Source: Neocallimastix lanati (nom. inval.)
Lineage: Eukaryota > Neocallimastigomycota > Neocallimastigomycetes > Neocallimastigales > Neocallimastigaceae
DNA length: 64,000 nucleotides
Direction of reading: 5' to 3'
Assembly: GCA_016946835.1 (NCBI GenBank)
Contig: JACVTC010000017.1
Coordinates: forward strand, 342,501 to 406,500
Below the pieces are notes generated by a model, which did not search any database, had not been told where the DNA came from, and worked only from the letters and a program-made list of their open reading frames with translations. Positions 11,337-56,948 of the stretch are shown here, in pieces. Positions within the stretch are counted from its first letter, which is position 1. Every line of letters starts with the position of its first letter. Made by a program: the position numbers and the translations under genes.

Positions 11337-11763
11337 CAGCTAATCCAAGCCCTCAATACCTTTACGCTATCCCACAGACATTCTACCTTTAGGAATTCTA
11401 CCTTCTCAATATCTTTTGGCAATCGTTGGGTTTCTATTTTTACTATTCTACTATCAAAGAACAAATACCTACTCTTCCGGTTCTCTCGATCTTAGTCTAA
11501 TAATCTTTGAATAAATCTTCTTATCTACTATCTCTTTAATACCGGACTTCTATATCTTTTAATCTTGGATTTTATCTCCTCCCAGACGAATAATTACTGC
11601 CTATTGATTCCTATTCAAATTATCACCTTGTCTGTTTTGAGTTACCCTCACTATTATATAATTCAATCCTTTGTATTTATTATATTACCGGATAATCCTA
11701 ATCCTATAGTTGTTGAAATTAATTCTTATAACAAAAACTCTTGTACTACCCGATCATATAATT
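11337..11763 (+). other. E4 5' leader, part 1
   Basis: This is non-coding leader of higher sequence complexity than the surroundings, with repeated TTCTACCTT and CTACTATC-like pieces. It was continuous with 18288-19707 before the copia insertion. A short frame at 11565-11837 crosses the insertion junction and is not a gene. Confidence 0.7.
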
Positions 11764-12074
11764 TGAGAAAAGTATGTGTGTTTTTTATAATAAACTTTAT
11801 TTATTTTTGTATTTATTTAATACATAAATTTTATTAATGTAAAGAACTCATTTTTTTAAGATAATAAAAATAATTATTTTTATAGTAAAAATTACATATT
11901 TAATCATGTGATAATTCTATGAATTAATACACATAGATAAATGTTACACAACATAAAAATATAAGAATAAAATATTAATATAAGATAAAAATATAATATT
12001 GATAATAATATAAGAATATAAAAATATAATTTTAATAATATAAAAATATAAAATAAAATGTGATTATTTTAACA
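11764..12074 (-). repeat. copia 3' LTR
   Basis: This 311-bp direct repeat of 17972-18282 is bordered inside by the purine tract and outside by TAATT (11759-11763). Confidence 0.95.
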
Positions 12075-12083
12075 TTCCCCCCT
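12075..12083 (-). promoter_or_regulatory. copia polypurine tract
   Basis: AGGGGGGAA on the minus strand directly precedes the 3' LTR and overlaps the end of pol. It is the plus-strand DNA primer in this family. Confidence 0.85.
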
Positions 12084-16830: not shown

Positions 16831-16850
16831 GTCATATGGATTTTCTCCAT

Positions 16851-16857
16851 CTAGTCA
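16851..16857 (-). promoter_or_regulatory. Probable UGA read-through site between gag and pol
   Basis: On the minus strand gag ends AAG AAT ATC TGA and continues in the same frame CTA GAT GGA to the pol ATG nine codons after the UGA. UGA followed by CUAG is the best-known strong read-through context. No other stop separates the two ORFs. Confidence 0.7.
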
Positions 16858-17901: not shown

Positions 17902-17957
17902 ATCTATAAGAAAGGCGGTTTTAAATAACGGATATATTTTTATAAATAAGAGCTAAT

Positions 17958-17970
17958 TGAGACTCTTAAT
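17958..17970 (-). promoter_or_regulatory. copia primer-binding site, half-tRNA-Lys type
   Basis: On the minus strand ATTAAGAGTCTCA lies one G after the 5' LTR. It is complementary to the anticodon stem-loop of tRNA-Lys(CUU), and identical to the E1 site at 5180-5192. Confidence 0.7.
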
Positions 17971-17971
17971 C

Positions 17972-18282
17972 TGAGAAAAGTATGTGTGTTTTTTATAATA
18001 AACTTTATTTATTTTTGTATTTATTTAATACATAAATTTTATTAATGTAAAGAACTCATTTTTTTAAGATAATAAAAATAATTATTTTTATAGTAAAAAT
18101 TACATATTTAATCATGTGATAATTCTATGAATTAATACACATAGATAAATGTTACACAACATAAAAATATAAGAATAAAATATTAATATAAGATAAAAAT
18201 ATAATATTGATAATAATATAAGAATATAAAAATATAATTTTAATAATATAAAAATATAAAATAAAATGTGATTATTTTAACA
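17972..18282 (-). repeat. copia 5' LTR
   Basis: The 311-bp LTR is followed by the target duplication TAATT at 18283-18287. No difference from 11764-12074 was noticed by eye. Confidence 0.95.
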
Positions 18283-18287
18283 TAATT

Positions 18288-22700: not shown

Positions 22701-23895
22701 GAAAACTATTAATCTAATTAATCGTGATTTCTGGTGGCCTTCCTTGCAATCTGATGTTAAAGACTATATCCGTTCTTGTGATGTCTGTTCCCGCTCTAAA
22801 GACTCTAGACATAAGCCTTACGGTTTTCTTAATCCTCTGGACATTCCTTGTAAACCCTGGATTTCTATTTCAATGGATTTTATTACTGATCTTCCCGTTT
22901 CTAATGGTTACACTTGTATCTTTGTTGTCACAGACAGATTTACTAAAATGAGTCATTTTATTCCGTTCCCTAAAGTACCCTCTGCTGCTGATACGGCTTC
23001 GGCTTTTATGAACAATATTTTTCGTATTCATGGACTTCCTTCCGAAATCATTTCTGATAGAGGTTCTCAATTCACTTCAAAATTTTGGTCAGCTATTTGT
23101 AAATCTTTCAATATCACAACGAAACTTGCTTCTCCCTTCCATCACCAAACCAATGGTTTAACGGAGAGGGTGAACTCCGTTATTGAACAATACTTAAGAT
23201 GTTATTCAAACTTTAAAGGTTCTGATTGGTATAATTTTTTATTCCTAGCAGAATTCAGTTATAATAATTCAATTCAAGAATCAATTAAGCACTCACCTTT
23301 TTATGCAAACTATGGATATAATCCAAGATATTCACCATCAATTCCAAACAGTACAGATGTTCCTAGAGCTGATGAATTTACAAAAGACCTTTCAGAATTA
23401 TTCAAAACACTTAATGGAAATTTACAACAAGCAAGAAAAAAGCAAGAAGAATTCGCAAACAAACATCGTATTGAAGCTCCAAATTTTAAACCTGGTGATA
23501 AAGTGTGGATTAATAGTTCACTTATAATTCATAATGGAAATAAAAAACTTAAACCCAGAAAACTTGGTCCATATAAAATCATTAAGAAAATTTCTCCCGT
23601 TTCATATAAGTTAGACTTACCAAAAGAAATCAGAATCCATCCTGTAATACATGTTTCTGAACTTGAACCATTTTATGAAGATCACTTTGGACGAAAGAAA
23701 GAACCACCACCACCGATAATTATTGACAATGAAGAAGAATACGAAGTTGAAAAAATTCTTGATAAAAGAAAACATTATGGCAAAACCCAATATCTTATTA
23801 AATGGAAAGGCTATCCTTTATCTGAAGCATCTTGGGAACCCGAAGAAAACTTAAATTGCCCTAAACTCTTAAAAGAATTTAACAATAATAACTAA
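19708..23895 (+). CDS. E4 Gag-Pol polyprotein (Ty3 chromovirus)
   Basis: The single 1395-residue ORF starts at an ATG. It holds a Retrotrans_gag region (about 1-190) and a CCHC knuckle [14 protein letters not shown] from 229. The protease has DTG from 300. The RT has [11 protein letters not shown] and YIDD at 623-626, and RNase H has [11 protein letters not shown] and DKELLA. The integrase has an HHCC finger and D,D,E near 1057, 1116 and 1151. A canonical chromodomain covers about 1345-1393, with [10 protein letters not shown] and [17 protein letters not shown]. All catalytic motifs are present. Gag and Pol are fused without recoding, as in Tf1, so their ratio must be set after translation. 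The chromodomain would tether integration to marked chromatin. Confidence 0.95.
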
Positions 23896-24227: not shown

Positions 24228-25186
24228 TGTAAAATATTTAATAATTTGAATACGTATTTAAATGTAATGTAATGTAAATTATTGTGGATAAAAATGTTTT
24301 CCAAATTTTTAATATAAATTTAAATGTATTCCAAATTATTAATTTAATTAATTTTCTCAAAAATGTATGACTAAATTATTTGGAGAATTTACATCATTAT
24401 TACTCACTTTGAATCATGAAACTTTGTAAATTAAAAATAATTAGTCATGAAACTTGTAAATTAAAAATAATTAGTCATGAAACTTGTAAATTAAAAATAA
24501 TTAGTCATAAATTAGTTAAATTAAAATAATCAAAGAAAAATTGCCTTTTCCGTTTGTTTACAAAAACTTGCCGTTTTGTTTATTTATTTTTAGAAATATT
24601 AGATAGTTTCAAATAGTTTTTATATTAAAATAACTCATAAAAATTCATGTAATTTATTATTAAATGTAATTACAAATATATAATAATATTTTAGTTAGTT
24701 TATTACAATCTATTCAATTTAAATTTTAATTTTCAAAAAGTATAAAAAGAGTTAATTTTCAACTATTGAACGATAGTTGGAAAATAGTATAGAAAATAGT
24801 ATAGTTTAGAATAGTATAGTTTAGTATAGATAATATAGATAGTATAAATTTTATATTTTATTAATTAGTATTATAACTATTATTAGAATAGTTATTTTTT
24901 TATAAAACAAATTTTATTTTAAATTTTATTTAAAATCTTAACTGCTAGTAGGCTTTCCGGTAAAGGACCCTACGGTACCCAGTTAAGTGATTGTTGATTT
25001 TAGAATAGTTAAATTCAACAAATAAGAAATATTAATAAAAGAATTTTTTTTATAAAACAAAAAATTAAATTAGTTTTTTAGTTTTAGTGTTTTAGTTAAT
25101 AATTAATTATAGTGTTGATATAATAAGATAGTGTAAAATAAATTATAGTCTGTCCTCACCGACCTAAGCTATTATTTTATTTTACA
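24228..25186 (+). repeat. E5 5' LTR
   Basis: The 959-bp LTR contains three tandem AGTCATGAAACTTGTAAATT-type units (about 24410-24510), a TATA box at 24741 and the inferred R start at 24775. Confidence 0.95.
24741..24785 (+). promoter_or_regulatory. E5 TATA box and self-priming transcript start
   Basis: TATAAAAA at 24741-24748 is followed 34 nt later by AGTTGGAAAAT (24775-24785). This is the exact reverse complement of the 11 nt after the LTR. Confidence 0.75.
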
Positions 25187-25197
25187 ATTTTCCAACT
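25187..25197 (+). promoter_or_regulatory. E5 self-primer-binding site
   Basis: ATTTTCCAACT directly follows the 5' LTR and pairs over 11 nt with 24775-24785. Confidence 0.75.
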
Positions 25198-25340
25198 CGT
25201 TAGATTAGTATAGTTTACCTTTGTGTAGGATAGACTAGTAATAGTATAAAAATTTTTTTTTTTTTTGAAAAAATAATTAAAAAGTGGATTTAGTAATACT
25301 TTATAGTTTAATTTATAGTTTAATAAATAATAATAATAAG

Positions 25341-28300
25341 ATGAATTACATAAATATCAACAATCAACATCCAGGAGCTAGGGGAGACTTTGACGCAGCC
25401 TCTGAAGCCAGCTCCATGGAAATAGAAAATGAGGTTGGTAATAACGTCAATACCAGGGCACGCCTCATTCCGAAACCAAAAGCATTCTCCGGAAGAAGAA
25501 ACGAACTACCAGCCTTCCTTGGTCAAATCAACCGATATTTTAAGTACAATTTAGACGAAGAAGCTGCTGCTGATGACGAATTCAAGATTGATATTATAAG
25601 TAGTTATTTGGAGGGAAACGCTGCTGAATGGTTTGCTGATCTAGTTAAAGAAGAAAGTCCACTATTGGAAAATTACGAGAATTTTATTGACGCTTTGCAA
25701 CAACGTTACAAATCCTGTGCGAGTTCAGATGTCGCGAACAGTCGACTTACCAAGATACGTAGCCAACAATTTAGAACAATAGCCGAATACTGCAATCAGT
25801 TCGAGAAAATAGCCAGAGATTCATCATTTAATGACGAAGCTAAAATCCATTTTTTCATTGAGGGTTTACCAACAAGAGAAAAAGAAAGAACCAAACTAAT
25901 TTATCCTAGAATTAGAAGAATTAATGAACTAATTAATGTTGTAGCTGCTAATGCTGAAGAAGATCGTCGTGTTAACGGAAATGACCCAATGGATATAGAT
26001 CAAAGAAGAATTAGACCTTTTCGTAGGGATTTAGGATCAAGTCGTTACCAAAATAATTACCGAAGTAGCCAAAATTACAGGGATTCTTCACCAAAGAGGT
26101 CAAACAAACCGAAGAAGTGTTTTATATGTAAGAGCACAAGCCACTTAAAGGAAAACTGTCCCAAGCAACAGGACAAAATTAGAAGAAGAGAAAAGATCTT
26201 ACAGATTAAATTGAGCGAGAAAAGTTTAGCTCACACTTACAATGTTGTTTTTAAGTACAAAAATGGTTTTATTATGTCCGCAATTCTAGATACTGGCTCA
26301 GATCTTAATATTATGGATAGAGCTACCGCCGATAAATACCAGATCCCAATACAACGAATCCGCCATGAGAAAAACGTTATCGGATTTAACGGAAATGGAA
26401 CAATTCGTTATGAAACCATTCCATTAACTATGGTCATGGGTCAACATATCGAAACCATTCAATTTTACATTTATAGTTTACCAAAAGGAATTTCGGTTAT
26501 TTTAGGAAATCCATGGTTGAAGAAGCATTGCCCAACAATTGAATTTGATAAAGGTAATATCAGATTCAGTTCCCAATACTGCAAGAGAAATTGTTGTGTC
26601 ACCGCTGAAGATATTATGAGAAGAACAACTGAAGAAAAGAAGAAAAAAGATGAAATCCGCCGAAGTAAAATACAATTAGCTAGAGAAATTATTAATAATT
26701 ATAATAATGTATTAGATAGTTTAGATAATAATGATGTTAAAAAATTAGTCGATAATAAAAATAAATTATGTAGTAAAAAATCACGTAATATAAAGGCTAT
26801 TATGAAAAAAGCCTTAGTTAAAAAAGAAAAATGTATTAAAAGAAAAGAATTAAATAAAGGAAAATTTGAAAATTATGCTTTCTGTTATGTTTTAAAAAAT
26901 GAGAATAAAGATAAAAGTGTTATTAAATGTGATTATAATAATGAAAGTGTTAAAGAAAATAAAAGTTTGGAAAGAATACCAAAACAATATGAGAAATTTA
27001 AAAATGTGTTTGATGAACAAGAGTGTAACGAATTACCACCACATCGTCCATACGACTGTAAAATTAGATTAAAGGATGATGTAAACTTATTTTATGGACC
27101 ATTATATCCATTAACGGAAGAAGAACGTGAAGCTTTAAAAGAATATATCAAAGAAAATTTAGAAAAAGGCTTCATTAGACCTTCAACATCTCCTGCTGGT
27201 GCTCCAATTTTATTCGTTAGAAAAAAGGATGGAAGTTTAAGACTTTGTGTCGATTATCGAAGACTTAATGAAAATACTATAAGGGACTCCTATCCACTCC
27301 CTTTAATCACCGAGCTTTTTGACAGATTGAGAGAAGCTAAGTATTTTACTAAGTTAGATTTAAAATCAGCATATAATCTAGTAAGAATTCGTAAAGGAGA
27401 TGAGTATAAAACCGCTTTCAGAACAAGATACGGTCATTATGAATACCGAGTAATGCCCTTTGGATTAAAGAATGCACCTGCTACTTTCCAACACTTTATT
27501 AATGATGTATTAGGGGAATACTTAGATGAATTCGCTTTCGCTTATATTGATGATATACTTATATACTCAAACACCCTAGAAGAACATCGCGTGCATGTGA
27601 AGAAGATTCTTAAACGTTTGCAAGAAAGTGGACTTTATGCAAAATTAAGTAAGTGTGAATTTGAAGTCCAGAAAACAACATTCTTGGGGCACGTAATATC
27701 CAATCAAGGAATTTCCATGGATCCGGATAAAGTTAAGTCTATCTTAGAATGGCCAATACCAACTACAGTCAAAGAAGTACAATCATTTATAGGTTTATGC
27801 AACTACTACCGAAGATTCATCCCAAACTTTGCTAAAATTGCTAAGCCGTTACACAACTTAACAAGAAAAGATGTTAAATATGAATGGACTGAAGAATGTT
27901 CTGTCGCATTCGAAAATTTAAAGAAACTCTTTACAAAAGAACCAATACTTGTTCATGCAGATCCAGAATTACCGTTTATAGTAGAGACAGATGCAAGTAA
28001 TTTTGCAATCGGTGCTGTGTTATCTCAAAGACAAAAATATACAAACGAATTACATCCAATTTGTTATTATTCAAGAGGTTTAACAAAATCTGAAAAGAAT
28101 TATCCAATATATGACAAGGAATTATTAGCTGTCAAGTGTGCGTTACAAGAATGGAGACATTACTTAGAAGGGGCTAAGCATCAATTTACAATTTATACCG
28201 ATCATAAAAATTTAACTTATCCACGTAAACCTGAGTTGTTATCTCAACGTCAAATAAGATGGAACTTATTCTTATCTCGATTTGATTACAAAATACAATA

Positions 28301-29909
28301 TAGACCAGGAAAAGAAGGTGGAAAACCAGATGCTTTTTCGAGAAGACCAGATTATGAAAATCAAGAAATAGATGATGAAAAAGAAACTTCAACTTGTCTT
28401 ACAATACAAGAAGCTACAGAAGATTTATGTTTAGTTGCAATTCAAGGGAACTTAAAAGATGAATTGATAAAAGAAATTAAAGATGATGAAGTCATACAAG
28501 AATTAATCAAGATCAAAAAAGGAGAATCTACTTCTAATAATAAATATAAAAATAAAATGAAAGACTTTACTATTGACGAAGAAGGTTTATTATTATATAA
28601 GGGTTTAATTTTCGTTCCAAAGAAGATGAGAAATATTATCATTGCTATTCATCATGATAATCCAGTTCAAGGTCATTTTGGTATTCTCAAAACCAAAGAA
28701 ATTATAAGTAGAAATTTTGTTTGGTTTAAGATGACTTCCGATATTGTTAAGTATATCGCATCATGCAAAACATGTGCTCAAGTAAAAGATGATCGCCACC
28801 GTCCTTATGGATTACTTCAACCTCTTCCTACTCCAAGAAGACCATGGTCCTCAGTCTCAATGGATTTTATAACTGATTTACCTAAGTCAAGAGACAAAAC
28901 AGTTATAATGGTCGTAGTTGATAGATTAACAAAGATGGCTCACTTTATTCCATTTAGAAGTATACCTACTGCTCAAATCGCTGCTGATGTATTTTTTAGA
29001 GAAGTTTTTCGTTTACACGGATTACCAGAAGATATTACTTCCGATAGAGGATCTCAATTCACCTCTGAATTCTGGCAAAGACTTTGTAGTTTATTAGATA
29101 TTCGTCAAAATTTGTCAACAGCACATCACCCTCAAACAGATGGTCAAACTGAACGAGTTAATGGTATATTAGAACAATTTTTAAGGTGCTATATTAACAA
29201 AAGAAAAAATAACTGGATGGACATTCTTCCTTATGCTGAATTCGCATATAATAACACATTACAACAATCGACTAATCAGACACCATTCTTCTCAAATTAT
29301 GGTTTTAATCCAAAATTCAATCCAGTTATACCTGCTGATAGCAGAAGAACAAGTACCATTGACCATGTTGAACAAATAAGGAGAAACATGCAATTCCTCA
29401 AGAAAAATTTAGAAAAAGCTAAGGAAAGATATAAGAGATATGCAGATCACTTAAGAATTGTAGGACCAAAATTAAAAGTAGGTGATAAAGTTTGGTTAAA
29501 GCGTCCAGACTTACTTCCAAAAGGTCCTTCTAAATTGACTAACAGAAAACTCGGTCCTTTTAAAATTATTGAAAAAACAGGCCCTGTTTCTTATAAATTA
29601 GAATTACCTGATACTATTAAATGCCATAATGTTTTCCATATTTCAAATCTAGAACCTTACAATGAAAGAGAATTTAATGAATCAAGTGCAAGTACTAATA
29701 CTCGAATTACTTCGATCGCTACTGATACTGAAGGAAAGGAACCTTTGAAGATTGTTGCCGCTAAAGTTGTTAACAATAAACCTTTTTACTTTATGTTATG
29801 GAAAGGACTTCCAGCTACTGAATGTACTTGGTTGTCTGAAGATGAAATCACTGATCCTCAATTAGTTCAAGAGTTCAATAAAACAAATAGAGTTCCTTCT
29901 AGATTATAA
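25341..29909 (+). CDS. E5 Gag-Pol polyprotein (Ty3 chromovirus)
   Basis: I start the ORF at the ATG at 25341 (1522 residues); the open frame further upstream has no ATG. It contains a Retrotrans_gag region and a CCHC knuckle CFICKSTSHLKENC from 260. The protease has DTG from 317. A Lys/Asn-rich linker follows, then the RT with FTKLDLKSAYN and YIDD from 735, and RNase H with VETDASNFAIG. The integrase has an HHCC finger and D,D,E near 1174, 1234 and 1269 ([17 protein letters not shown]). The C-terminal chromodomain-like segment (about 1470-1515, WKGLPATECTWLSEDE) is divergent. No interruptions were seen. Confidence 0.95.
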   Translation: MNYININNQHPGARGDFDAASEASSMEIENEVGNNVNTRARLIPKPKAFSGRRNELPAFLGQINRYFKYNLDEEAAADDEFKIDIISSYLEGNAAEWFADLVKEESPLLENYENFIDALQQRYKSCASSDVANSRLTKIRSQQFRTIAEYCNQFEKIARDSSFNDEAKIHFFIEGLPTREKERTKLIYPRIRRINELINVVAANAEEDRRVNGNDPMDIDQRRIRPFRRDLGSSRYQNNYRSSQNYRDSSPKRSNKPKKCFICKSTSHLKENCPKQQDKIRRREKILQIKLSEKSLAHTYNVVFKYKNGFIMSAILDTGSDLNIMDRATADKYQIPIQRIRHEKNVIGFNGNGTIRYETIPLTMVMGQHIETIQFYIYSLPKGISVILGNPWLKKHCPTIEFDKGNIRFSSQYCKRNCCVTAEDIMRRTTEEKKKKDEIRRSKIQLAREIINNYNNVLDSLDNNDVKKLVDNKNKLCSKKSRNIKAIMKKALVKKEKCIKRKELNKGKFENYAFCYVLKNENKDKSVIKCDYNNESVKENKSLERIPKQYEKFKNVFDEQECNELPPHRPYDCKIRLKDDVNLFYGPLYPLTEEEREALKEYIKENLEKGFIRPSTSPAGAPILFVRKKDGSLRLCVDYRRLNENTIRDSYPLPLITELFDRLREAKYFTKLDLKSAYNLVRIRKGDEYKTAFRTRYGHYEYRVMPFGLKNAPATFQHFINDVLGEYLDEFAFAYIDDILIYSNTLEEHRVHVKKILKRLQESGLYAKLSKCEFEVQKTTFLGHVISNQGISMDPDKVKSILEWPIPTTVKEVQSFIGLCNYYRRFIPNFAKIAKPLHNLTRKDVKYEWTEECSVAFENLKKLFTKEPILVHADPELPFIVETDASNFAIGAVLSQRQKYTNELHPICYYSRGLTKSEKNYPIYDKELLAVKCALQEWRHYLEGAKHQFTIYTDHKNLTYPRKPELLSQRQIRWNLFLSRFDYKIQYRPGKEGGKPDAFSRRPDYENQEIDDEKETSTCLTIQEATEDLCLVAIQGNLKDELIKEIKDDEVIQELIKIKKGESTSNNKYKNKMKDFTIDEEGLLLYKGLIFVPKKMRNIIIAIHHDNPVQGHFGILKTKEIISRNFVWFKMTSDIVKYIASCKTCAQVKDDRHRPYGLLQPLPTPRRPWSSVSMDFITDLPKSRDKTVIMVVVDRLTKMAHFIPFRSIPTAQIAADVFFREVFRLHGLPEDITSDRGSQFTSEFWQRLCSLLDIRQNLSTAHHPQTDGQTERVNGILEQFLRCYINKRKNNWMDILPYAEFAYNNTLQQSTNQTPFFSNYGFNPKFNPVIPADSRRTSTIDHVEQIRRNMQFLKKNLEKAKERYKRYADHLRIVGPKLKVGDKVWLKRPDLLPKGPSKLTNRKLGPFKIIEKTGPVSYKLELPDTIKCHNVFHISNLEPYNEREFNESSASTNTRITSIATDTEGKEPLKIVAAKVVNNKPFYFMLWKGLPATECTWLSEDEITDPQLVQEFNKTNRVPSRL

Positions 29910-29942
29910 GTCGCTCAGGGGCTCGACTTAAACAGAGGGGCA
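29910..29942 (+). promoter_or_regulatory. E5 3' motif and polypurine tract
   Basis: GTCGCTCAGGGGCTCGAC, able to form a small GTCG/CGAC hairpin, is followed by AACAGAGGGGCA directly before the 3' LTR. A related GCAGGAGCTCGA block lies at the same place in E2 and E7. Confidence 0.7.
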
Positions 29943-30901
29943 TGTAAAATATTTAATAATTTGAATACGTATTTAAATGTAATGTAATGTAAATTATTGT
30001 GGATAAAAATGTTTTCCAAATTTTTAATATAAATTTAAATGTATTCCAAATTATTAATTTAATTAATTTTCTCAAAAATGTATGACTAAATTATTTGGAG
30101 AATTTACATCATTATTACTCACTTTGAATCATGAAACTTTGTAAATTAAAAATAATTAGTCATGAAACTTGTAAATTAAAAATAATTAGTCATGAAACTT
30201 GTAAATTAAAAATAATTAGTCATAAATTAGTTAAATTAAAATAATCAAAGAAAAATTGCCTTTTCCGTTTGTTTACAAAAACTTGCCGTTTTGTTTATTT
30301 ATTTTTAGAAATATTAGATAGTTTCAAATAGTTTTTATATTAAAATAACTCATAAAAATTCATGTAATTTATTATTAAATGTAATTACAAATATATAATA
30401 ATATTTTAGTTAGTTTATTACAATCTATTCAATTTAAATTTTAATTTTCAAAAAGTATAAAAAGAGTTAATTTTCAACTATTGAACGATAGTTGGAAAAT
30501 AGTATAGAAAATAGTATAGTTTAGAATAGTATAGTTTAGTATAGATAATATAGATAGTATAAATTTTATATTTTATTAATTAGTATTATAACTATTATTA
30601 GAATAGTTATTTTTTTATAAAACAAATTTTATTTTAAATTTTATTTAAAATCTTAACTGCTAGTAGGCTTTCCGGTAAAGGACCCTACGGTACCCAGTTA
30701 AGTGATTGTTGATTTTAGAATAGTTAAATTCAACAAATAAGAAATATTAATAAAAGAATTTTTTTTATAAAACAAAAAATTAAATTAGTTTTTTAGTTTT
30801 AGTGTTTTAGTTAATAATTAATTATAGTGTTGATATAATAAGATAGTGTAAAATAAATTATAGTCTGTCCTCACCGACCTAAGCTATTATTTTATTTTAC
30901 A
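29943..30901 (+). repeat. E5 3' LTR
   Basis: This 959-bp direct repeat of 24228-25186 is followed by target duplication ATGTA. Confidence 0.95.
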
Positions 30902-32963: not shown

Positions 32964-33528
32964 TAAAAAATAAATTTCTTTTTATTAAAATTTATTTATT
33001 ATTTATTAATATTAAAATTTATTTTTTTTGAAGTACAAATATTTAATTTTTAAGAAATATTTACAATATTTATATTTTTTTATGAATTTAAAGTATAATT
33101 ATTTGTTTATAATTTAAGTAATTTTATAGAATTATTGAATTAATTTTATATCAATAATTCATTTTTGTTTTTTTATAAATATAATAATATAATATTCAAA
33201 TATAATTTAATTAAAAATAATTATAAAATAAATATATAGAAAATAGTTTTTACTATTTTCTTTGATATTTTTAAGTTAAATAAATTGTTTTTAAAGATTA
33301 ATATAATATATTTAATAATCTTTAATTATTTTAAATAATACTTGTAATTATTTTCAAAATAAAATAAAATTTTTATAATATTTAATTAATAAATTTGATA
33401 ATATTTAAATAATAAATTTTTATAATAATTAATAATTTTTAATAATTTTTAATAATAAATTTAATTAATAATCTTAATAATTTTATAATAGTATTTAATA
33501 GTTATGATAAAGTCCTCTTTTATATAGT
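32964..33528. other. AT-rich spacer between E8 and E6
   Basis: Very AT-rich sequence with no ORF, LTR or repeat copy that I recognise. Confidence 0.6.
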
Positions 33529-34061
33529 TGTAAAGATTTAATAAAATCTTTAATAATTAATTATTACATAATTAATTAATGTAATAAAATTACATAAATT
33601 TATGATTTACGTATATGAAAATTAATTATAAATTTATGTAAACTTTTCATAAAGGAAAAATTATTATTTAAATAATTTTGGATAATAACTTAAATCTAAA
33701 TAATTTATTTAAGTTAGTTAATTTAGTTTAGTTTATTTAAAATAGTTATTCTATTTAATTTAGTTAATTAATATTTAATAAAATTATTAATAAATATTTT
33801 GTTTATAAATAAATAGTAATATATGTAAATTAGATAGAAATAATATATTATAATGTAATAATGAAAAAATATAAATTTCTATAATTAAATCGATGTATTA
33901 GTTATTGACTATATGATAGTTAATAACAAAAAAGAGATTTAATTTTTTTTTTAATTAATAAAGATTATTTTATTTAAAAAAACGAATTTTTATTACGGGT
34001 TTTTTTTATTTTGGTGTTAAAATTTGTTATTTGTAATCTGTTTCTGATAGAACTCTTTACA
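33529..34061 (+). repeat. E6 5' LTR with internal deletions
   Basis: The LTR is 533 bp against 768 bp for the 3' copy. The large deletion joins near 33765-33770 at short TTAGTTAATT repeats. The small one removes 10 bp between the TATA box and the transcript start. Confidence 0.85.
33895..33905 (+). promoter_or_regulatory. E6 self-priming transcript start
   Basis: GTATTAGTTAT follows a CGAT as in E2 and E7 and is the exact reverse complement of 34062-34072. In the intact 3' LTR it lies about 35 nt downstream of TATAAATA; in this LTR a 10-bp deletion shortens the gap to about 25 nt. Confidence 0.75.
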
Positions 34062-34072
34062 ATAACTAATAC
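34062..34072 (+). promoter_or_regulatory. E6 self-primer-binding site
   Basis: ATAACTAATAC directly follows the 5' LTR. It differs from the E2/E7 site ATAACAATTAC, and the LTR partner differs to match. Confidence 0.75.
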
Positions 34073-34110
34073 CTTTTAAATAAAAAGAAACACGTTACAA
34101 ATAATAAAAC

Positions 34111-34456
34111 TTTCTACTGATTTAGGACTCTACTTTAGGACTCTACTTTCTACTGATTTAGGACTCTACTTTAGGACTCTACTTTCTACTGATTTAGGAC
34201 TCTACTTTAGGACTCTACTTTCTACTGATTTAGGACTCTACTTTAGGACTCTACTTTCTACTGATTTAGGACTCTACTTTAGGACTCTACTTTCTACTGA
34301 TTTAGGACTCTACTTTAGGACTCTACTTTCTACTGATTTAGGACTCTACTTTAGGACTCTACTTTCTACTGATTTAGGACTCTACTTTAGGACTCTACTT
34401 TCTACTGATTTAGGACTCTACTTTAGAACTCTACTTTCTACTGATTTAGGACTCTA
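34111..34456 (+). repeat. 36-bp tandem array in the E6 leader
   Basis: Nearly ten almost perfect copies of a unit made of TTTCTACTGATTTAGGACTC, TAC and TTTAGGACTCTAC. A 13-bp sub-repeat (TTTAGGACTCTAC) occurs twice per unit. It lies between the primer site and gag. Confidence 0.9.
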
Positions 34457-34745
34457 TAATTTTGACTTTTAACATAGATTTTTATTGCTCTTAAGCATTG
34501 TTAACCCTTACTGATTTTGGACTCTTATTATTGTTGCTATTCAGGTTGAAATATTAATAATAGTTATATTATTCTATATTTTCTTCGTTTACTCGTTCGA
34601 CACCTTTTCAAGTGGATAGAGTCTGAACGACTTTACGATATTAAATATAGACATATTAATAACTTGTATAATTAATAATAAGAGATCAAAAAAAAAAAAA
34701 AAAAAAAAATAATTTAATTATTAACGTCACTTTAACATTAACAAT

Positions 34746-36362
34746 CTGGAAGAACTAAATCGCATATTTCAAAACCTTAATCTTGATGATAACATGGAGG
34801 GTCAACAACCAAACCAACTACCGATTCATCCTGCTACTCAACTGAAAATTATTAACGATCCACCGTTATTTTCTGGATCTACAAAGGATCTTGATGGTTT
34901 TTTAACCCGAGTGGAATTGGCAATTGAGGTGAATCCTCATAGATTCCCCGATGATAGGAGAAGAATAATGTTTGTAATCTCCTATTTAACAGGAAAAGCT
35001 TTAAATTGGGCTTCATGCCTTAGAAGGAATAACAATCCTGTCTTAGGAAATTATGGAAATTTTATTGCTGAACTTCGTAGAAATTTCGGAGACCCTGATG
35101 TAGAAGCTGTTATTGCTAACGGAAAATTGTGTAACATACGCCAATTTAAATATGGACATGTTGTAGAGTATATCTCCGAGTTCCAAAAAATAAGTCAATA
35201 CTCCGACTTTAATGAACCGGCCAAGATATACATGTTCATAAAAGGTCTCCATTATAAGATGAGAGAAAAGCTTGCTATTGTTAATCCAAACCCAGACAAT
35301 TTGGAAAACTTATTTAGAGAGGCCGTAACGATTGAAAATCTAACAAAAAGAAACGATCTTAGAGAATATTATCTTACTCATCAGGACAGACGGAACTACA
35401 ACCAAAATGACCCCATGGATGTCGATCTTTACCGAATTAAAAAGGGTCAAACTGCTACTAGATACTTTCCCTCTCACAGAAAAAATTACTATGAGCAAAA
35501 TAACCCTTTTAGGGAAGAACGAAAAAGAAAGGGCTTATGCTTCGTTTGTGGTAAGGCTGGGCATTTACAGTTTAATTGCCCTAACAAGAAAAGATCAAAA
35601 AATATAAAACTCATCAATAGAGCATCTGATACAGAAGCAGCTTCAACTTCTTCCTCTGCGCCGACTTCTTCTGTCAGACGAATTAAAAAGATTTGTGAAA
35701 ATGAAAATGTTTACAGAATTCTTGATATTGTTGAAAAAGAAAATATGTTCTTTAAAGGTAAAACAAATATCCTTGATTTTTACATTAAAACCAACAATTC
35801 CGAAGAAACTAAAGTGAAGGTTCTTATTGACTCAGGTTCTGACATTAACTGCATGCATCCTGAATTTGCTAGGGTTAATAAAATCAATTTGATCAATGCT
35901 GATAATTCCTTTAAAGTTGCTGGTCTTGGTTATGGTTTATCTACTGTTAAGAAAATGACAGAAAAATGTATCCTCCGTTTTAAGAATCACTTGGAAGTTA
36001 TTCAATTATACGCCCTTCGTATCCCCGATGTAGATATCATTTTAGGACTCCCTTGGATTGAAAAACATTGCCCTATTAACTACCATGATTCAAAGAAAAT
36101 CTCTTTCAGTTCAGGATACTGTGCTCGACACTGTAATGTAGGGAAAAGAAATAGAAAAAATAAGAATAAAAAGAAGTTAAATAAAATTTCTACTAAAGGA
36201 AAGGAACCATATGAAGAACTTTCCGTAACAAAGGAAAAAAATAAAATAATTGGGTTGACTTGTTGCCTTTTGCCGAGTTTGCTTATAATAATACTCTGCA
36301 ACAATCAATCAATCAATCACCATTTTTTGCAAACTATGGATTTAACCCAAAATTTAGTCTAG
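34746..36362 (+). CDS. E6 Gag-protease remnant
   Basis: The first ATG is at 34794, but homology to E2 and E7 Gag starts earlier, at CTG 34746 (LEELNRIFQNLNL). The ORF has a Retrotrans_gag region containing GSTKDLDGFLTR, a CCHC knuckle CFVCGKAGHLQFNC, and a retropepsin with LIDSGSDIN and ILGLPW. After about 36240 it joins at a deletion to out-of-frame integrase-derived sequence and stops at 36362. The protein could form particles and cut itself but has no polymerase, so the element would be non-autonomous. The last 40 or so residues have no homology in this frame. Confidence 0.8.
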   Translation: MEELNRIFQNLNLDDNMEGQQPNQLPIHPATQLKIINDPPLFSGSTKDLDGFLTRVELAIEVNPHRFPDDRRRIMFVISYLTGKALNWASCLRRNNNPVLGNYGNFIAELRRNFGDPDVEAVIANGKLCNIRQFKYGHVVEYISEFQKISQYSDFNEPAKIYMFIKGLHYKMREKLAIVNPNPDNLENLFREAVTIENLTKRNDLREYYLTHQDRRNYNQNDPMDVDLYRIKKGQTATRYFPSHRKNYYEQNNPFREERKRKGLCFVCGKAGHLQFNCPNKKRSKNIKLINRASDTEAASTSSSAPTSSVRRIKKICENENVYRILDIVEKENMFFKGKTNILDFYIKTNNSEETKVKVLIDSGSDINCMHPEFARVNKINLINADNSFKVAGLGYGLSTVKKMTEKCILRFKNHLEVIQLYALRIPDVDIILGLPWIEKHCPINYHDSKKISFSSGYCARHCNVGKRNRKNKNKKKLNKISTKGKEPYEELSVTKEKNKIIGLTCCLLPSLLIIILCNNQSINHHFLQTMDLTQNLV

Positions 36363-36417
36363 AAATTCCTTCTTTAGATAGTCCTCATAGAGCTGATGTT
36401 AGAGTAAAAGATATAAA

Positions 36418-37185
36418 TGTAAAGATTTAATAAAATCTTTAATAATTAATTATTACATAATTAATTAATGTAATAAAATTACATAAATTTATGATTTACG
36501 TATATGAAAATTAATTATAAATTTATGTAAACTTTTCATAAAGGAAAAATTATTATTTAAATAATTTTGGATAATAACTTAAATCTAAATAATTTATTTA
36601 AGTTAGTTAATTTAGTTTAGTTTATTTAAAATAGTTATTCTATTTAACTTAGTTAATTTAGTTTAGTTAGTTTAAAATACTTTAAAATTAATTTCGGAAT
36701 AGTTTTAAATAGTTAAAATTAGTTTAAATAGTTTACAAAAATAGTTTTGAATTGTAAATATATAAACATTAGTATTAATAATATTTATATAATAAATATA
36801 ATAAATGAGTTGTTATTGAATTTAATTATTATTGTAAATAAGTTGAAAGTTTATTAAATTAATTATTGTTTAGTTTAGTTAATTATTATTTAATAAAATT
36901 ATTAATAAATATTTTGTTTATAAATAAATAGTAATATATGTAAATTAGATAGAAATAATATATTATAATGTAATAATGAAAAAATATAAATACATGTAAA
37001 TTTCTATAATTAAATCGATGTATTAGTTATTGACTATATGATAGTTAATAACAAAAAGAGATTTAATTTTTTTTAATTAATAAAGATTATTTTATTTAAA
37101 AAAACGAATTTTTATTACGTGTTTTTTTTTTATTTTGGTGTTAAAATTTGATATTTGTAATCTGTTTCTGATAGAACTCTTTACA
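36418..37185 (+). repeat. E6 3' LTR
   Basis: This 768-bp copy retains the blocks missing in the 5' LTR. Coding sequence abuts its first base directly, with the usual stop codon and purine tract deleted. Confidence 0.9.
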
Positions 37186-37587
37186 AATTGTATTATTTGA
37201 AAATTTTATAAAATTTTTAACTCAATTTTTGAAAATTTTTCATTAATAAAAAAATTTTTTTTTTTTTTTTTTTTAAAATAATTATATATAATTTTGATAT
37301 AATAATAATTGAATAATATATATAATTATTAATAATTAATTTTGAAATTTAAATTGGAAATGTAATTTTAGAAATTTATTTTGAAATTTTGAAATTTCAA
37401 TTTCGAAAATTTAAAAATAAAATTAATTATGAAATATATATATAAGTTAAATGTCATATTAGCATAAATATGAATAATATTTTGCTATTTTAACTGTAAA
37501 TATTAAAATGGATTGCTGAAATTTAAATTCAAAATTTTGAAATTTATTATTATTTATTATATTTTTGTATTTATAATTGATTTTTAC
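37186..37587. other. AT-rich DNA 3' of E3 pol
   Basis: The stretch holds a T run, TTTTGAAATTT-type simple repeats and no clear LTR or polypurine tract. The E3 3' LTR would be expected here but is not recognisable. Confidence 0.55.
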
Positions 37588-40500
37588 TTATTCTCTATAA
37601 GGTAGGATATTTTTAATATGGATATTTCTTTTTAATATTACTCCTGACCTATCTTCTTGTAGTTTCACCGTATTCCAAGTTATTTCCTTTATCGTATAAG
37701 GGCCAATGTAGTATGGGTCCAATTTTTGTCTTTGAAATAATTTAATCTTTACCTTATCACCAACTTTATACTCAGGAAGTTTTTCCATACTTCTTTTCGC
37801 TTTTCTTCTAGACTTCCAATAATTAATTGTACCTAATTTTTTGTTTGCAGCATCCTTTACCCATTTAGTATGTTCCAAAATTCTTTCAATTAATACTTCG
37901 TCAATTGAGCATTCAACAGGTTCCTCCAAAGAATTCAATAAGGTAATTTCAGTAGGAAGTAAATCTTCTCTTCCATATAAAAGTTCAAAACTAGAGTATC
38001 CACTAACAGAGGATTTTGCCGTCCTTATAGCCCATAAAGCCAACGGTAACAGAGTATCCCATTCGTCGTTCTTACCAGCAAAATTCCTTAATTGTTTTCC
38101 TATTTCTCGGTTTCTATTTTCCACTAAACCATTAGAAGGTGGATGATAATTAGCAACAAAATGAATGTAAACTCCATATAAATCTAAGAAAATTTTTGTA
38201 TAATCACTGTTCAATTGTGGTCCATTATCCATATTAATTATTTGGGGTAGTCCATGCCTACTAAACACATTCACTAAGAAATCAACCACATCTTGAGAAG
38301 TAACAGAAGGATAAGCTTCTGCCTCAGTCCATAAAGTGAAATAATCTACACAAACAATTATATATTTATTACCTTTAGTAGTAGTTTTTAAAGGTCCAAT
38401 AATATCTAGGCCCATTCTAACAAAAGGAGCTTCTACAGGAGTTCGAAATATTTCAACCAAATTAGAAAGGGGCTCAGATCTATTAAGTTGACATATTTTA
38501 CAAATAGATATATATTTTTTTATATCTAAAATCATATTTTTCCAATAGTAATTTTTCTTAATTCTATCATACGTCTTTTGTAACCCTTCATGGCCGATTC
38601 TATGAGCCATTCCGATAATTTTTATCTTTTCTAGATAATCATCTATCACCAGTCTTAATTTATCTTTATCTCTAATATATGTTTTATCATCTATAGTAAC
38701 AATTCTATCTTTTAAAAACTTTTTCATGAATTCCGAGATATATTTTTCATTTTCGACTTCGTCCAAAAAGTTTGATTGATCATCTTCATTATTGTTATTA
38801 CCAATAATTTCTACGTTATTTTCATCAACAATATTATTATTATTTTCAATATTGTTTCCTAAATTATTATTATTTTCTTCAACAATAGCATTTACTACAA
38901 TATTTTCTTTTTTTCTAATGCGAGATAATGCATCAGCAATAATATTCCTTTTCCCTGGTTGGTAGACAACTTTTACTTGTAGTTGACTGAATAAATCACA
39001 CCAATGAGCGTGTTTACTAGTATTAGGTTCGCATTTCATAATGATAGGGACTAAAGGTTGATGATCTGTATACAGTATTGTCTGAAACGGATTACCTAAT
39101 ATATATTGTTTGAATTTATTGACACAAAAATATGCCGCATTACCTTCTAACTCTGTTATTGGGTAATTAAGTTCTGACTTATGCAGGGAACGACTAATAT
39201 AAAATACTGGGTGTTCTACTTCATCATTATATAGTTGCAATAAAACACCACCAATTCCTTGATAACTAGCATCAGTGCGTATATTAAATGGTTTATCATA
39301 ACGTGGATAACACAAAATAGGTGCTTGACAAAGAGCTTCCTTTAATTTTTCTATACTAGTAGTATGCTCATTAGTCCATTCAAAAGTAGAATTTTTCCTT
39401 AGTAATTTGCATAACGGGGAAGTTAATGTAGCATAATTTTCAATAAAATTCCTATAGTAACCCACCATTCCAAGAAAAGAACGTAATTCCGTAACATTAG
39501 AAGGATTATCTAATTTCTTTATTGCATCAATCTTCTTTTCTAGTGGTAATAATCCTTTGTTTGAAATCGTATGTCCTAAAGCCTCCACTTCAAAGACACA
39601 AAAATGACATTTCTCAATGTTCATTTTTAATTTAAATTTTCTGAGAATTTTAAATACATTTATTAGGTCGATTAAATGTTGTTCAATGGATGGTGAATAA
39701 ACAATAATATCGTCAAGATAAATTTGAACACATTTATTAATTAAGTCAAAGAAAATCCTATTCATTTCGCGTTGGAAGGTTGCCGGAGCATTAGTCAATC
39801 CAAAAGGCATTACCTTAAAGTAATAATTTCCAAATTTAGTTGTAAAAGAAGTAATTTCTTGGTCGCTTTCATACATAGGTATCTGGTGATACCCACTAAA
39901 AAGATCAATAGTAGAAAATATTACTGCATCTTTTAATGCATCAAAAATTTCTTGAATTATAGGGATGGCATAAGCATCTTTTTTTGTTATTTTATTTAAT
40001 AACCTATAATCTATGCACAGTCTCCATCTACCATTTTTCTTTGGTACTAAAACAATAGGTGAAGACCAAGGTGAATGAGAAGGTGAAATTAATCCTTTGT
40101 CTATTAATTTTTTTAATTCTTCTTTTAGTGCTGAAAGTTGTACCTGGGAGATCCTATATGCCTTTTGTTTTATTGGCTTGCTACCTTCTAGTAATTCAAT
40201 ACGGTGAGGTAGCAATTTGGATGGTTTTAAATCATCACTAGATATAGCTATTACATCTGAATATGAAGTTAATATGGATTTAATTTCATTTTTAAAATTT
40301 CCATCTTTGATATCCATATTGCTGATTAATTCTTCCAAAATTTTATTTTTATTAGTTGTATTAATTTTATTGGTACTAATTACATTATTAATACTAGTAT
40401 TATTCTCTAATATATAACAAAACATACACTGTGTATGAAGTTCATGTACATCTTCCAAAGGAACCAATGGGACCGCACTAAAGGTAAACACACCATTAAC

Positions 40501-41318
40501 ATTATTAATACCACTTTTTACATATAAATATTTACTATCTGCATCTACTAATAATTTATAATCTGCTTGAGTTTTTAAATTAATTATTATATCAAATATT
40601 GAGTCATCATTATCAAATACTCTAAAGACTGCATTAATTTTTAGAGTACCAATTTGTACTTCTAATTTTACCATTTCATAAACACGTTCTTCCGTATTAG
40701 ATAATGCCTGATGCACTCTACCAGAAGTAGAACCAACTATGGTATAATTTTTAATATTTTTATTTAGAAAATTTCTGGTTACCAAATTTGTATTACTACC
40801 ACCATCAATTAATACAGCAGCAGAATGACCATTAACCGTACCATTGACAATAGCAATATCGTGTTCTTGAATTTCTCTTGTAGCGTAGCAATGGGTAGGA
40901 TTATTTACTATTTCAAATTCTTCTATATCATTATGATATTCTGCACATCCTACCACTGCATCATCATCCTCAGTTCTTACCTTTTTAAAACTTTTAGTGA
41001 TATCTGAACGTAGGGCACTACTTATACCTATTAATTGGGCCAAAGTAATATTTGCTGGGGTATTTTGTAATTCTTCTATAATATCATAAGGTTCAATACC
41101 CTCTAATAATTTAATGATTTGGCCTACCCTAGTAGTTTTTTTCTTTTTATTATTTTGTTCCAATATTTTTGTACTATTATTTTTATCGTTAAATTTATTA
41201 CCAATATTAGATGCAGGTATATTTAATTCCACTGAATCTATGTCAATTTTGTTTTCCAACGTGTCATTTTTATTATTTTTATTAATTCTATTATTATTAT
41301 TATTATTTATATTATTAC

Positions 41319-41355
<37 letters not shown>

Positions 41356-41805
41356 TGTAGTCAAGTTGGATGTATCATTATTGATATTATAATTACTTGA
41401 ATTATTATTAATTAAATTTTCATTAATATTATTATTGCTATTATTTTCATTATTATTATTGCTTCCTTTATTATTAATATTATTCTTAATATTATTATTT
41501 AAATTCGGTTTTAGAATTTTACGATTTTGTAAATTGTATAAGATATTATTGTAAACATTATCACTTATATTTAAATCGTTATTGTTATTTTCATTTATAT
41601 TGTTATTGTAATTGTTATTATTTATTTTAATATTATTATTGTTTTTATAATTTCTTTTTGCCTTAGGTAGAGATGCATATTTTTCATCTCTACTACGTTT
41701 TGCTGCAGCAATAATTGCATCATAATTATTGTTCCATGTTGCTGCAGTTATTACTGGAGAAGTGGCAATTTGATTATGGGAAGTTTGCCTTCTTCCATCA
41801 TTCAG
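37588..41805 (-). CDS. E3 Pol (Ty3 type), -1 frame product
   Basis: The frame opens at the slippery site 41805-41811 and gives about 1405 residues; no ATG is needed. After a long Asn-rich stretch comes a retropepsin-like motif LIDGGSNTN, with DGG where D[S/T]G is usual. The RT has FSTIDLFSGYHQIP and YLDD. RNase H has RTDASYQGIGG and TDHQPL. The integrase has an H..H..C-x2-C finger (IGHEGLQKTYDRI, SICKICQ) and a core with GLDIIGP, MDNGPQLNS and SNGLVENRN. I see no chromodomain. E3 is a different Ty3 branch from E2, E4 and E5. The frame is intact throughout. Confidence 0.88.
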
Positions 41806-42820
41806 TTTTTTTGTAAATTAAAATAATTTATAAAATTTGGATCTTGCTTAATTTTGGCTAATTCAGTACAATCCTTAACAAGATGACCAGGTTGGTTACA
41901 GAAATAGCATGTTTTAATCTGTAAGTTCTGCATTCTATTTACCAAGTCATCCATTCCATCATTATTAGGTATTTGATTGTTATTAATTTTATAATTATTA
42001 TTGTTTCTATTATTTAAATAATTATTATTTATATTATATGGGTTATTGATTCCATTATTATTAAAATTATTTGGCATATTATGATTATTTCGATGAATGA
42101 AATTGGTAGGCATGTTCGTGGAAGTATTCCTATTGTTTCTAAAATTCAGACCAGTTCTTTTCCATGAATTATTGGAATTATTTACAAGATTAGGGACAGG
42201 TTGATTCATAGGGGAATAAATGCTATAATTATTATTTCTTTCATTCCTCCTATTATTCCTATTGTAATGTGATTCCTGTAATATTTTCTCATATTTTTCT
42301 GCTTTACTACAAGCGTCTTCTAGGGAATCACATTCCTCCATAGCTATTTTAGTATAAATCTGAGTCCTTGGTCTAAGAGCATTTTCATAATCTATAACCG
42401 AAATAGATGCTCTATCCTCTGTCTCTAGTAGGTCGTATAATTCTAAATACCTGGTATTGAAATCATATACGGTTTCGTTTGGTTCGATAATAATACGTTT
42501 TAATTGACGTAATTTATTATCTTTTTGGTTTTCTCTCCAATACTTTTTCTTTATTAGTTTTACACATTCATCTAATGTAAGAGGTTTATTTACTTCTGCT
42601 TCTTTTTCTTTCAATACTCTTACAATGTCGTCTTCAGCAGCGGCAATAATATAACTAAATTTATTTTCATCAGTAGTAATGCCTTCTCTCTTAAACCAGT
42701 CATTGATCCTAAATTTCCAAAGTTCCGCATCCCTACGAGATCCACCAATCCTTGGAAGAGTTTTTGTATCTACGTTTGACATAGTGTTGTTGATACTATT
42801 ATAATCACTACTAATATGTT

Positions 42821-42854
<34 letters not shown>

Positions 42855-42857
42855 CAT
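41802..42857 (-). CDS. E3 Gag
   Basis: The 351-residue Gag starts at an ATG followed by ten Ser codons (an AGT microsatellite). A Ty3-type capsid region covers about 30-200 (ELWKFRINDWF, ETVYDFNTRYLELY). An Asn/Arg-rich spacer leads to a CCHC knuckle CYFCNQPGHLVKDC near 317-330. It ends CAA AAA AAC TGA, so the stop codon directly follows a slippery heptamer leading into pol. Confidence 0.88.
41805..41811 (-). promoter_or_regulatory. A AAA AAC -1 ribosomal frameshift site
   Basis: On the minus strand the gag frame reads CAA AAA AAC TGA. A AAA AAC fits X XXY YYZ in the correct phase. The -1 frame is open from here through the whole of pol with no stop (checked codon by codon to 41364). A downstream stimulatory structure was not identified. 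Confidence 0.8.
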
Positions 42858-43074: not shown

Positions 43075-43846
43075 TATAAAGTTTTGATTTAAAAAATAGA
43101 TTATAAGTCAAAAATTATAATAACACTAAATAACACAAAAATGTTTTATAAACAAATAAGTTTTATTATATTTAGATTTTAAAATAATCTTTATTAATTA
43201 TTAGTGTTATTAACAATAAATCGTTAATAACAATTACATCGATTAAAATACATGAAATTTGATAACTATTTATATTTTTATCTTATTACATTTATAATAT
43301 ATAATTCCTATTGAATTATATTATCTAGCTATTTATTTAAAAACAATACTAACCTAAACTAATAATAAATAATTAACTATTACTAAATAAAGAGAATTAT
43401 AATTAATAACTAAAATAAATATAATCAATTCTAATTGAGTTCATTTATTATTTATTTATTATTTAAATATTATTAGTAAATTTATTATATATTTTCTATT
43501 TAAAAATAATATAAAAGTTGTCATAATTATTTAATATAAATTTAGCATAAACTACCGTAAGTTTCAACATGACTAATTGCATAGTTTCATGTTGTTAATT
43601 TATCTTGTGAAAAACCTTAACTCTTATTATTTAAATTAAATTACATAAAAAGAAATGATTTTCAAATACTAGTTTCACAAGAGAAATTTTTAATTTATTA
43701 GTATGATTGGGAAAAAATCGAAATTATGTTAAAAATATTTTCAATAATTTTATACACGTGATTTCAAATAAATTTATTTTAATTTTACTTAAATTTATGA
43801 TTAAATTTAATTAAAATTATTTAAAGATATTAATAATATCTTTACA
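43075..43846 (-). repeat. E2 3' LTR
   Basis: This 772-bp direct repeat of 49107-49878 is preceded, in element orientation, by the purine-rich AAAGGGCGAGAT (43847-43858). Confidence 0.93.
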
Positions 43847-49095: not shown

Positions 49096-49106
49096 GTAAT
49101 TGTTAT
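49096..49106 (-). promoter_or_regulatory. E2 self-primer-binding site
   Basis: ATAACAATTAC on the minus strand abuts the 5' LTR and is complementary over 11 nt to the transcript start inside the LTR (49259-49269). It is identical to the E7 site. Confidence 0.78.
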
Positions 49107-49878
49107 TATAAAGTTTTGATTTAAAAAATAGATTATAAGTCAAAAATTATAATAACACTAAATAACACAAAAATGTTTTATAAACAAATAAGTTTTATTA
49201 TATTTAGATTTTAAAATAATCTTTATTAATTATTAGTGTTATTAACAATAAATCGTTAATAACAATTACATCGATTAAAATACATGAAATTTGATAACTA
49301 TTTATATTTTTATCTTATTACATTTATAATATATAATTCCTATTGAATTATATTATCTAGCTATTTATTTAAAAACAATACTAACCTAAACTAATAATAA
49401 ATAATTAACTATTACTAAATAAAGAGAATTATAATTAATAACTAAAATAAATATAATCAATTCTAATTGAGTTCATTTATTATTTATTTATTATTTAAAT
49501 ATTATTAGTAAATTTATTATATATTTTCTATTTAAAAATAATATAAAAGTTGTCATAATTATTTAATATAAATTTAGCATAAACTACCGTAAGTTTCAAC
49601 ATGACTAATTGCATAGTTTCATGTTGTTAATTTATCTTGTGAAAAACCTTAACTCTTATTATTTAAATTAAATTACATAAAAAGAAATGATTTTCAAATA
49701 CTAGTTTCACAAGAGAAATTTTTAATTTATTAGTATGATTGGGAAAAAATCGAAATTATGTTAAAAATATTTTCAATAATTTTATACACGTGATTTCAAA
49801 TAAATTTATTTTAATTTTACTTAAATTTATGATTAAATTTAATTAAAATTATTTAAAGATATTAATAATATCTTTACA
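49107..49878 (-). repeat. E2 5' LTR
   Basis: The 772-bp LTR has a TATA box at 49299-49306 and an inferred R start at 49269 in element orientation, giving an R-U5 of about 163 nt. Confidence 0.93.
49259..49306 (-). promoter_or_regulatory. E2 TATA box and self-priming transcript start
   Basis: On the minus strand TATAAATA (49306 to 49299) lies 37 nt upstream of GTAATTGTTAT (49269 to 49259), preceded by CGAT. The 11-mer pairs perfectly with the primer site after the LTR. Confidence 0.75.
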
Positions 49879-56233: not shown

Positions 56234-56937
56234 TGTAAAGATGTGATTATCCCAATCACATTTTAAATTAAAAAATTTTTCATGTGTAATTCAAAAATGT
56301 AAATTATTCTTTGATTTATAAAATAATAAACAAAGTAAATAAATCATATGAACTAAATTTTTGAATTATATTCTTTAAGCCACAAGATAAATTTTTAATG
56401 TAATAATTTTTATAAAATTTAATTCTGAGAAAATTATTGTTGTAAAATAATTTAAATGAATTAATTAAAGTTTAAAACAAAATAAATTAATAATTTATTT
56501 TGTGAAAATTAAGTTTCAAAATTTAATCATGACTCCTTTAACATTGTTTTTAAATCGAAAATAAATAAAGACTTTACTTATAATATTAAAATAATAAATA
56601 GATAATATATGTACTTAATTTTAATTATTTAATATTTAGTTTAATTAATAATTATATTTTTCTAAATTTAGCTATAATTTACAAATTTATTATTTAATAA
56701 AATTCATTAGGATAGTTTTATATTAAAATATATGTAATTTAAATAAAATAATATATTATCAATGTATTTAGGAAAAGTATATATAGAAGATACTTTTCAC
56801 ATTTTTTCTCGATGTAATTGTTATTTTAACAAATAACTATTAAATATTAATAAAATATATTTTAATAAAAAATTTTTTAATAAAATAAAATTTATTGTAT
56901 TTTGTTATTGTAATCTATTTTAGTGTTTTCTTTTACA
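56234..56937 (+). repeat. E7 5' LTR
   Basis: The 704-bp LTR has TGTAAAG/CTTTTACA ends. U3/R is placed at 56814 from the TATA box and the primer complementarity, so R-U5 is about 124 nt. Confidence 0.93.
56778..56824 (+). promoter_or_regulatory. E7 TATA box and self-priming transcript start
   Basis: TATATATA (56778-56785) is followed 36 nt later by GTAATTGTTAT (56814-56824), preceded by CGAT. This is the exact complement of the primer site at 56938-56948. Confidence 0.78.
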
Positions 56938-56948
56938 ATAACAATTAC
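56938..56948 (+). promoter_or_regulatory. E7 self-primer-binding site
   Basis: ATAACAATTAC directly follows the LTR. It pairs over 11 nt with the inferred mRNA 5' end, the same length as in Tf1. Confidence 0.78.

Follow-up and report, generated by a model that had tools for sequence, protein, structure and literature searches.

We found that four chromovirus families (E6, E7, E2 and B) of the window, i.e. the whole 64-kb stretch of DNA that was analysed, carry in their 5' LTR an exact 11-nt complement of a site that begins at the first base past this LTR. These elements are very probably Tf1/sushi-like chromoviruses, the RNA of which is predicted from its sequence to prime its own reverse transcription. 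The best reading of the data is that a mechanism already known from elsewhere occurs in one more host group, Neocallimastix, an anaerobic gut fungus. Self-priming is described as a trait of the Tf1/sushi chromoviruses of fungi, vertebrates and some plants (PMC10085805, PMC4600332, PMC6317226). The features of the E6 copy are as follows:

33529-37185, + strand: E6 element, a chromovirus copy in the 64-kb window
33529..34061, + strand: E6 5' LTR (TGTAAAG...CTTTACA), with 226-nt and 10-nt deletions as compared to its own 3' LTR
33870..33875, + strand: TATA-like box TATAAA, with the primer segment 25 nt downstream
33895..33905, + strand: primer segment GTATTAGTTAT, predicted RNA nt 1-11
33901..33927, + strand: local hairpin GTTATTGACTAT / ATAGTTAATAAC, overlapping primer nt 7-11
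34023..34037, + strand: 5' arm of the U5-IR-like stem, TTTGTTATTTGTAAT
34062..34072, + strand: primer-binding site ATAACTAATAC, beginning at the first base past the 5' LTR
34094..34108, + strand: 3' arm of the U5-IR-like stem, GTTACAAATAATAAA
34794..36362, + strand: 522-aa reading frame with capsid, zinc knuckle and protease
36418..37185, + strand: E6 3' LTR, with a second copy of the primer segment GTATTAGTTAT at 37020-37030

E6 is a broken remnant copy. A domain search of its frame (34794-36362) retrieved only domains of gag and protease, and the RT, the RNase H and the greater part of the integrase are absent; no purine tract precedes its 3' LTR and no target duplication was found at its flanks, whereas E2, E7 and B are purine-rich at that place and each have a 5-bp duplication. 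The two LTRs of E6 are identical at 527 of the 530 aligned positions, and the distance from the TATA-like box to the primer segment is only 25 nt in its 5' LTR because of the 10-nt deletion. No Rfam matches were found in 33401-37300. The leader of E6 also contains a tandem array of a 36-bp unit (34109-34456) between the primer site and gag. It is the family of this remnant that supplies the evidence. The features of the other three elements are as follows:

49096..49106, - strand: E7 primer-binding site ATAACAATTAC (5' LTR at 49107-49878; 5-bp duplication GATTA)
49259..49269, - strand: E7 primer segment GTAATTGTTAT (3' LTR copy at 43227-43237)
56814..56824, + strand: E2 primer segment GTAATTGTTAT (3' LTR copy at 62706-62716; 5-bp duplication TCAAC)
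56938..56948, + strand: E2 primer-binding site ATAACAATTAC (5' LTR at 56234-56937)
24228-30901, + strand: element B, a chromovirus (5-bp target duplication ATGTA)
24775..24785, + strand: element B primer segment AGTTGGAAAAT (3' LTR copy at 30490-30500)
25187..25197, + strand: element B primer-binding site ATTTTCCAACT (5' LTR at 24228-25186)

The E6 site ATAACTAATAC is the exact complement of the LTR segment GTATTAGTTAT (11 of 11 pairs). Compared with E2 and E7, both halves are changed at two of the 11 positions, without loss of any of the 11 pairs, as the earlier note had claimed, and we confirmed the sequences and coordinates involved. A third matched pair, ATAACAACTAC/GTAGTTGTTAT, occurs elsewhere in the host genome. 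The pair of element B, ATTTTCCAACT/AGTTGGAAAAT, which lies outside the E2/E6/E7 group, is also an exact match, and is unrelated to the E6 and E2/E7 pairs. In Markov-resampled LTRs, an exact 11-nt complement occurs somewhere with a probability of 0.0023 for E6, 0.00365 for E7, 0.00385 for E2 and 0.0012 for B. None of the four sites has the leading TGG of a tRNA-type primer site. E7 and B encode a Ty3/gypsy Gag-Pol (PR-RT-RNase H-integrase) with SH3_Tf2-1 (PF24626) and chromodomain (PF00385) parts; the E2 frame stops within the integrase, and the SH3/chromodomain part is absent from the E6 and E2 frames examined.

The covariation check across the E2/E6/E7 relatives, which had been put forward as a means to refute the pairing, was carried out on the host genome (199 Mb, 762 contigs). 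The site pattern TTTAYA+ATAAC+NNN+TACC gave 212 genome matches vs 9 in the reversed control; as it sets 8 of the 11 site bases, the apparent invariance at these bases comes partly from the search. The three free bases were AAT, TAA or AAC among the 100 matches listed. From 81 of these 100 matches and further E6-family loci, 80 distinct 260-nt sequences were obtained (identical ones merged), of which 70 possess the partner of their own type at most 330 nt upstream (TAA, 28/30; AAT, 34/39; AAC, 8/10; AAA, 0/1) and none a partner of another main type (TAA, AAT or AAC), so that the pairing withstood the check. The 10 sequences devoid of an exact partner comprise four that are one base off, five without a near match, and L023, the site and LTR segment of which are both altered, yet not complementary. 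A whole-genome search for cross-type combinations (TAA versus AAT/AAC, both directions) with a 143-173 nt gap (the spacing is 124-126 in the E2 family) found neither a TAA-type primer with an AAT/AAC-type site nor an AAT/AAC-type primer with a TAA-type site.

The primer segment in one context gave 857 genome matches vs 6 in the reversed control, and, of the 11 primer pairs, the two variable ones are altered in both partners (20 distinct rows, preselected for a perfect pair). A site search with all 11 bases free gave 169 matches (control, 49), and the 100 matches listed comprised about 17 unrelated rows besides the AAT type, the TAA type and a single variant; a rare site variant on contig C179 is without either of the partners tried. 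For element B, the site pattern gave 42 genome matches (control, 8) and the primer context 176 (control, 0), the primer being located 322-503 nt upstream in 26 of 27 sites among the matches listed (contigs up to C285). In unrelated sequences bearing the site pattern, no partner was found within 1 kb upstream (0/119; 0/39 viral and 0/80 prokaryotic, among the matches listed), as compared to 51 of the 58 rows of host loci, in which some loci are entered twice. Protein-based scans of viral and genome contigs, which used low-complexity peptide queries and are insensitive, retrieved no relatives outside the host genome. Two candidates were discarded: L018/L019, considered as a transposed mismatch intermediate, are the same stretch twice (identical over 2369 bases, flank included), and the match at 41608 to the E2/E7-type pattern, which falls in AT-rich sequence separating the two frames of E5 (a non-chromodomain element), was taken as chance. 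Separately, the LTRs of L061-L063 harbor a fourth primer type, GTATTTGTTAT, with the same hairpin, and a matching site was not found in the three stretches examined.

Clustering of the LTR ends yielded eight groups, in which the sole mixing of types is one AAA copy in the E6 group. In the RT-integrase tree, the TAA and AAC families are nested among the AAT families E7 and E2, which requires no fewer than two matched changes, with two positions involved in one of them; the order of the TAA, AAC and AAT families is itself weakly supported (0.65-0.71 at the nodes concerned). In this tree, which contained no named Tf1 or sushi sequence, the elements are grouped with an Orpinomyces element, and with a Batrachochytrium element and two vertebrate ones at 0.992, two plant elements standing apart. 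The motif CCCAYTAAG follows the site in 34 elements (26 TAA, 8 AAT), and those of known partner agree in type, namely L254 (TAA) and four of the five F5 members (AAT); in the fifth, L253, a near-match partner is absent. Three TAA members of this set have a TAA-type primer 151-159 nt upstream, by coordinates among the matches listed. The LTR of L254 is closer to one E6-family copy and its leader closer to F5; as L254 may be a recombinant, its TAA pair is no certain extra event.

The primer segment is predicted to be the 5' end of the RNA, from the TATA spacing only: a TATA-like box lies 34-38 nt upstream of it in 67 of the 70 partner-bearing loci. Besides the primer, an LTR stretch located about 24-39 nt before the LTR end pairs with a stretch starting 31-34 nt past the LTR. 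This flanking stem is paired at 13.6 of 14 positions within families (66 loci) and at 8.3-12.4 between families. In 20 distinct rows, preselected for a perfect primer pair, the primer duplex and flanking stem together are 96.4% paired vs 82.9% in shuffled sequences, and 11 pairs (two of the primer duplex and nine of the stem) are changed on both sides, the shuffle mean being 8.2 with 6 of the 500 shuffles reaching 11. Sliding the partner by 1-3 columns lowers the pairing to 29-57%. The reading of the earlier note, that the covariation speaks for a working pairing, is supported. E6 by itself is not the strongest evidence; as much comes from element B with its unrelated pair, and from the flanking stem, which covaries as well.

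A local hairpin begins at primer nt 7. It has at least 7 bp in 60 of the 70 loci and 5 bp in five others, and is lacking in the remaining five, which all belong to the E2 family; counted by distinct sequence, at least 7 bp are formed in 20 of 30, as compared to 0.5 expected in shuffles. No hairpin that overlaps the primer in this way is present in element B. Just 5' of the primer of B, an imperfect copy of the B site, ATTTTCAACTAT, generates a DNA palindrome around the predicted start. In folding without pseudoknots, the primer:site duplex was not chosen in seven of the eight leaders (0/11 pairs in six, 5/11 in E7), where forcing it costs 1-16 kcal/mol, and all 11 pairs were chosen in B. The primer:site duplex and the flanking stem form together a pseudoknot, beyond what the folding program can represent. 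The folding result counts against a resting state with the primer:site duplex formed, and agrees with a hairpin in need of opening.

From these lines of evidence, we propose the following pathway. Transcription would start about 35 nt past the TATA-like box, and RNA nt 1-11 would fold back onto the 11 nt just past the 5' LTR, next to the U5-IR-like stem; pairing potential and co-change were observed for the primer and site, and co-change for the stem. By analogy with Tf1, the RNase H of the element would cut after nt 11, and the freed end would prime the minus-strand DNA. Plus-strand synthesis would then copy the primer into the new site, thereby carrying over to the site any change of the LTR segment. 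Primer nt 7-11 also pair in the local hairpin, which may have a role in this process. In the general picture of how LTR elements replicate, copying of the primer into the plus strand precedes the second jump, and the new site is thus templated by the primer on one strand. As the site is thus expected to be copied from the primer, the co-changes should not be taken as independent compensating mutations; co-change would be partly built into replication, and it still argues that the segment is the primer. In the proposed pathway, the halves would match because the primer is copied into the site and pairing is selected.

It is also conceivable, if rather unlikely, that the pairing is used but that its halves match solely through selected compensating mutations, the site not being rewritten from the primer. 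Strong selection would equally account for the absence of cross-type intermediates in the spacing tested, and selection on the leader structure is real, since the flanking stem covaries and its arms are not copied from each other. What speaks against this explanation is the replication scheme outlined above, which predicts that the primer is copied into the plus strand. Priming by a cellular tRNA or other RNA, the 11-nt complement serving in dimerisation, packaging or translation, appears improbable. The self-priming described here is predicted from sequence and the tRNA search, which found no tRNA genes, covered the 64-kb window only; on the other hand, the sites have no initial TGG, begin at the first post-LTR base, and differ between families along with the LTR. 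A match due to chance or shared ancestry is the least credible explanation and is already contradicted: the sequences are AT-rich, and the copies are non-independent as members of related families, but the per-LTR chance is 0.001-0.004 in four families, the unrelated sequences have 0/119 partners, and the data comprise two or more matched changes as well as a fourth pair that is unrelated to the others.

With regard to the hairpin, we tentatively suggest, as a speculation less likely than its alternative, that the leader RNA switches between two states. Nucleotides 7-11 of the primer (GUUAU) would pair either with the far arm of the hairpin, AUAAC, or with the identical AUAAC that opens the primer site, nt 1-6 acting as a toehold for the remainder of the site; by strand exchange, the hairpin would be opened where the cut after nt 11 is expected, and this would set when the RNA becomes a template. 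If so, the first five site bases would be locked and only the toehold would drift, each primer change passing to the site by replication. Except in B, the variation seen is confined to the toehold positions. The inverted repeat after the primer could instead be a DNA element, such as a protein-binding site, which we find possible and somewhat more plausible than the switch: it sits just past the predicted start and, with arms such as GTTATTAAC/GTTAATAAC, has the look of a protein-binding inverted repeat. Against a DNA element, the arms vary between families with pairing retained, G-U pairs included, and ATAAC, the far arm, recurs as the first five bases of the site.

The Neocallimastix elements share with Tf1/Tf2 (Schizosaccharomyces pombe) and Tj1 (S. 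japonicus), as these are described in PMC4600332 and PMC10085805, an RNA 5' end (here predicted) that complements the post-LTR site, an additional duplex between site-adjacent and LTR sequences, and a chromovirus Gag-Pol. They differ from them by the host phylum and the primer letters. The flanking stem resembles the U5-IR stem reported for Tf1 (in a title among the references of PMC4600332; the duplexes are described in PMC10085805); of the three duplexes of the 'pretzel' leader of the Tf1/sushi group, the primer:site duplex and this U5-IR-like stem are present here, and for the remaining one we found only short AT-rich matches. The text consulted on Tf1/Tf2/Tj1, figures aside, does not mention a hairpin sharing primer nt 7-11. 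The 5' LTR ends with CA in E6, E2 and B, and with TA in E7 and the F5 family, unlike the set of PMC10085805, the legend of which states, for that set only, that the 5' LTR always ends with CA. PMC6317226 describes Tcn1-clade chromoviruses of mosses and club-mosses as predicted self-primers, on the basis that the sequence starting 0-5 bp past the end of their 5' LTR has a complement of 10 bp or more within this LTR, as is found here; these elements have other hosts, and are likened to ours by this criterion. Similarly to Skipper of Dictyostelium (PMC5006619), the Neocallimastix elements are chromoviruses without a TGG primer site, but their complement is exact, whereas no complementary region is reported in the left LTR of Skipper.

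Other elements were noted in the window. The Ty1/copia element at 11759-18283 (- strand, RVT_2) has no complement of at least 9 nt, given the LTR ends used. The frame at 19708-23895 (+ strand, 1395 aa), just upstream of element B, encodes an RT about 56-60% identical to that of E7, and no LTR pair or 11-nt complement was found for its element. The Ty3/gypsy element at 37588-42857 (- strand), without SH3_Tf2-1 or chromodomain match, served as the tree outgroup, and the close Neocallimastix relatives of the frame at 7737-9029 (- strand) carry MULE transposase and FLYWCH domains.

In the open-licence literature, as judged by titles and abstract openings, we found no report of self-priming in gut fungi. 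As far as this literature shows, our findings would extend self-primed reverse transcription to these fungi. A single genome offers a natural set of co-changed primer/site pairs, which make it testable whether the site is rewritten from the element's own LTR at each cycle, and whether the hairpin gates translated versus reverse-transcribed RNA.
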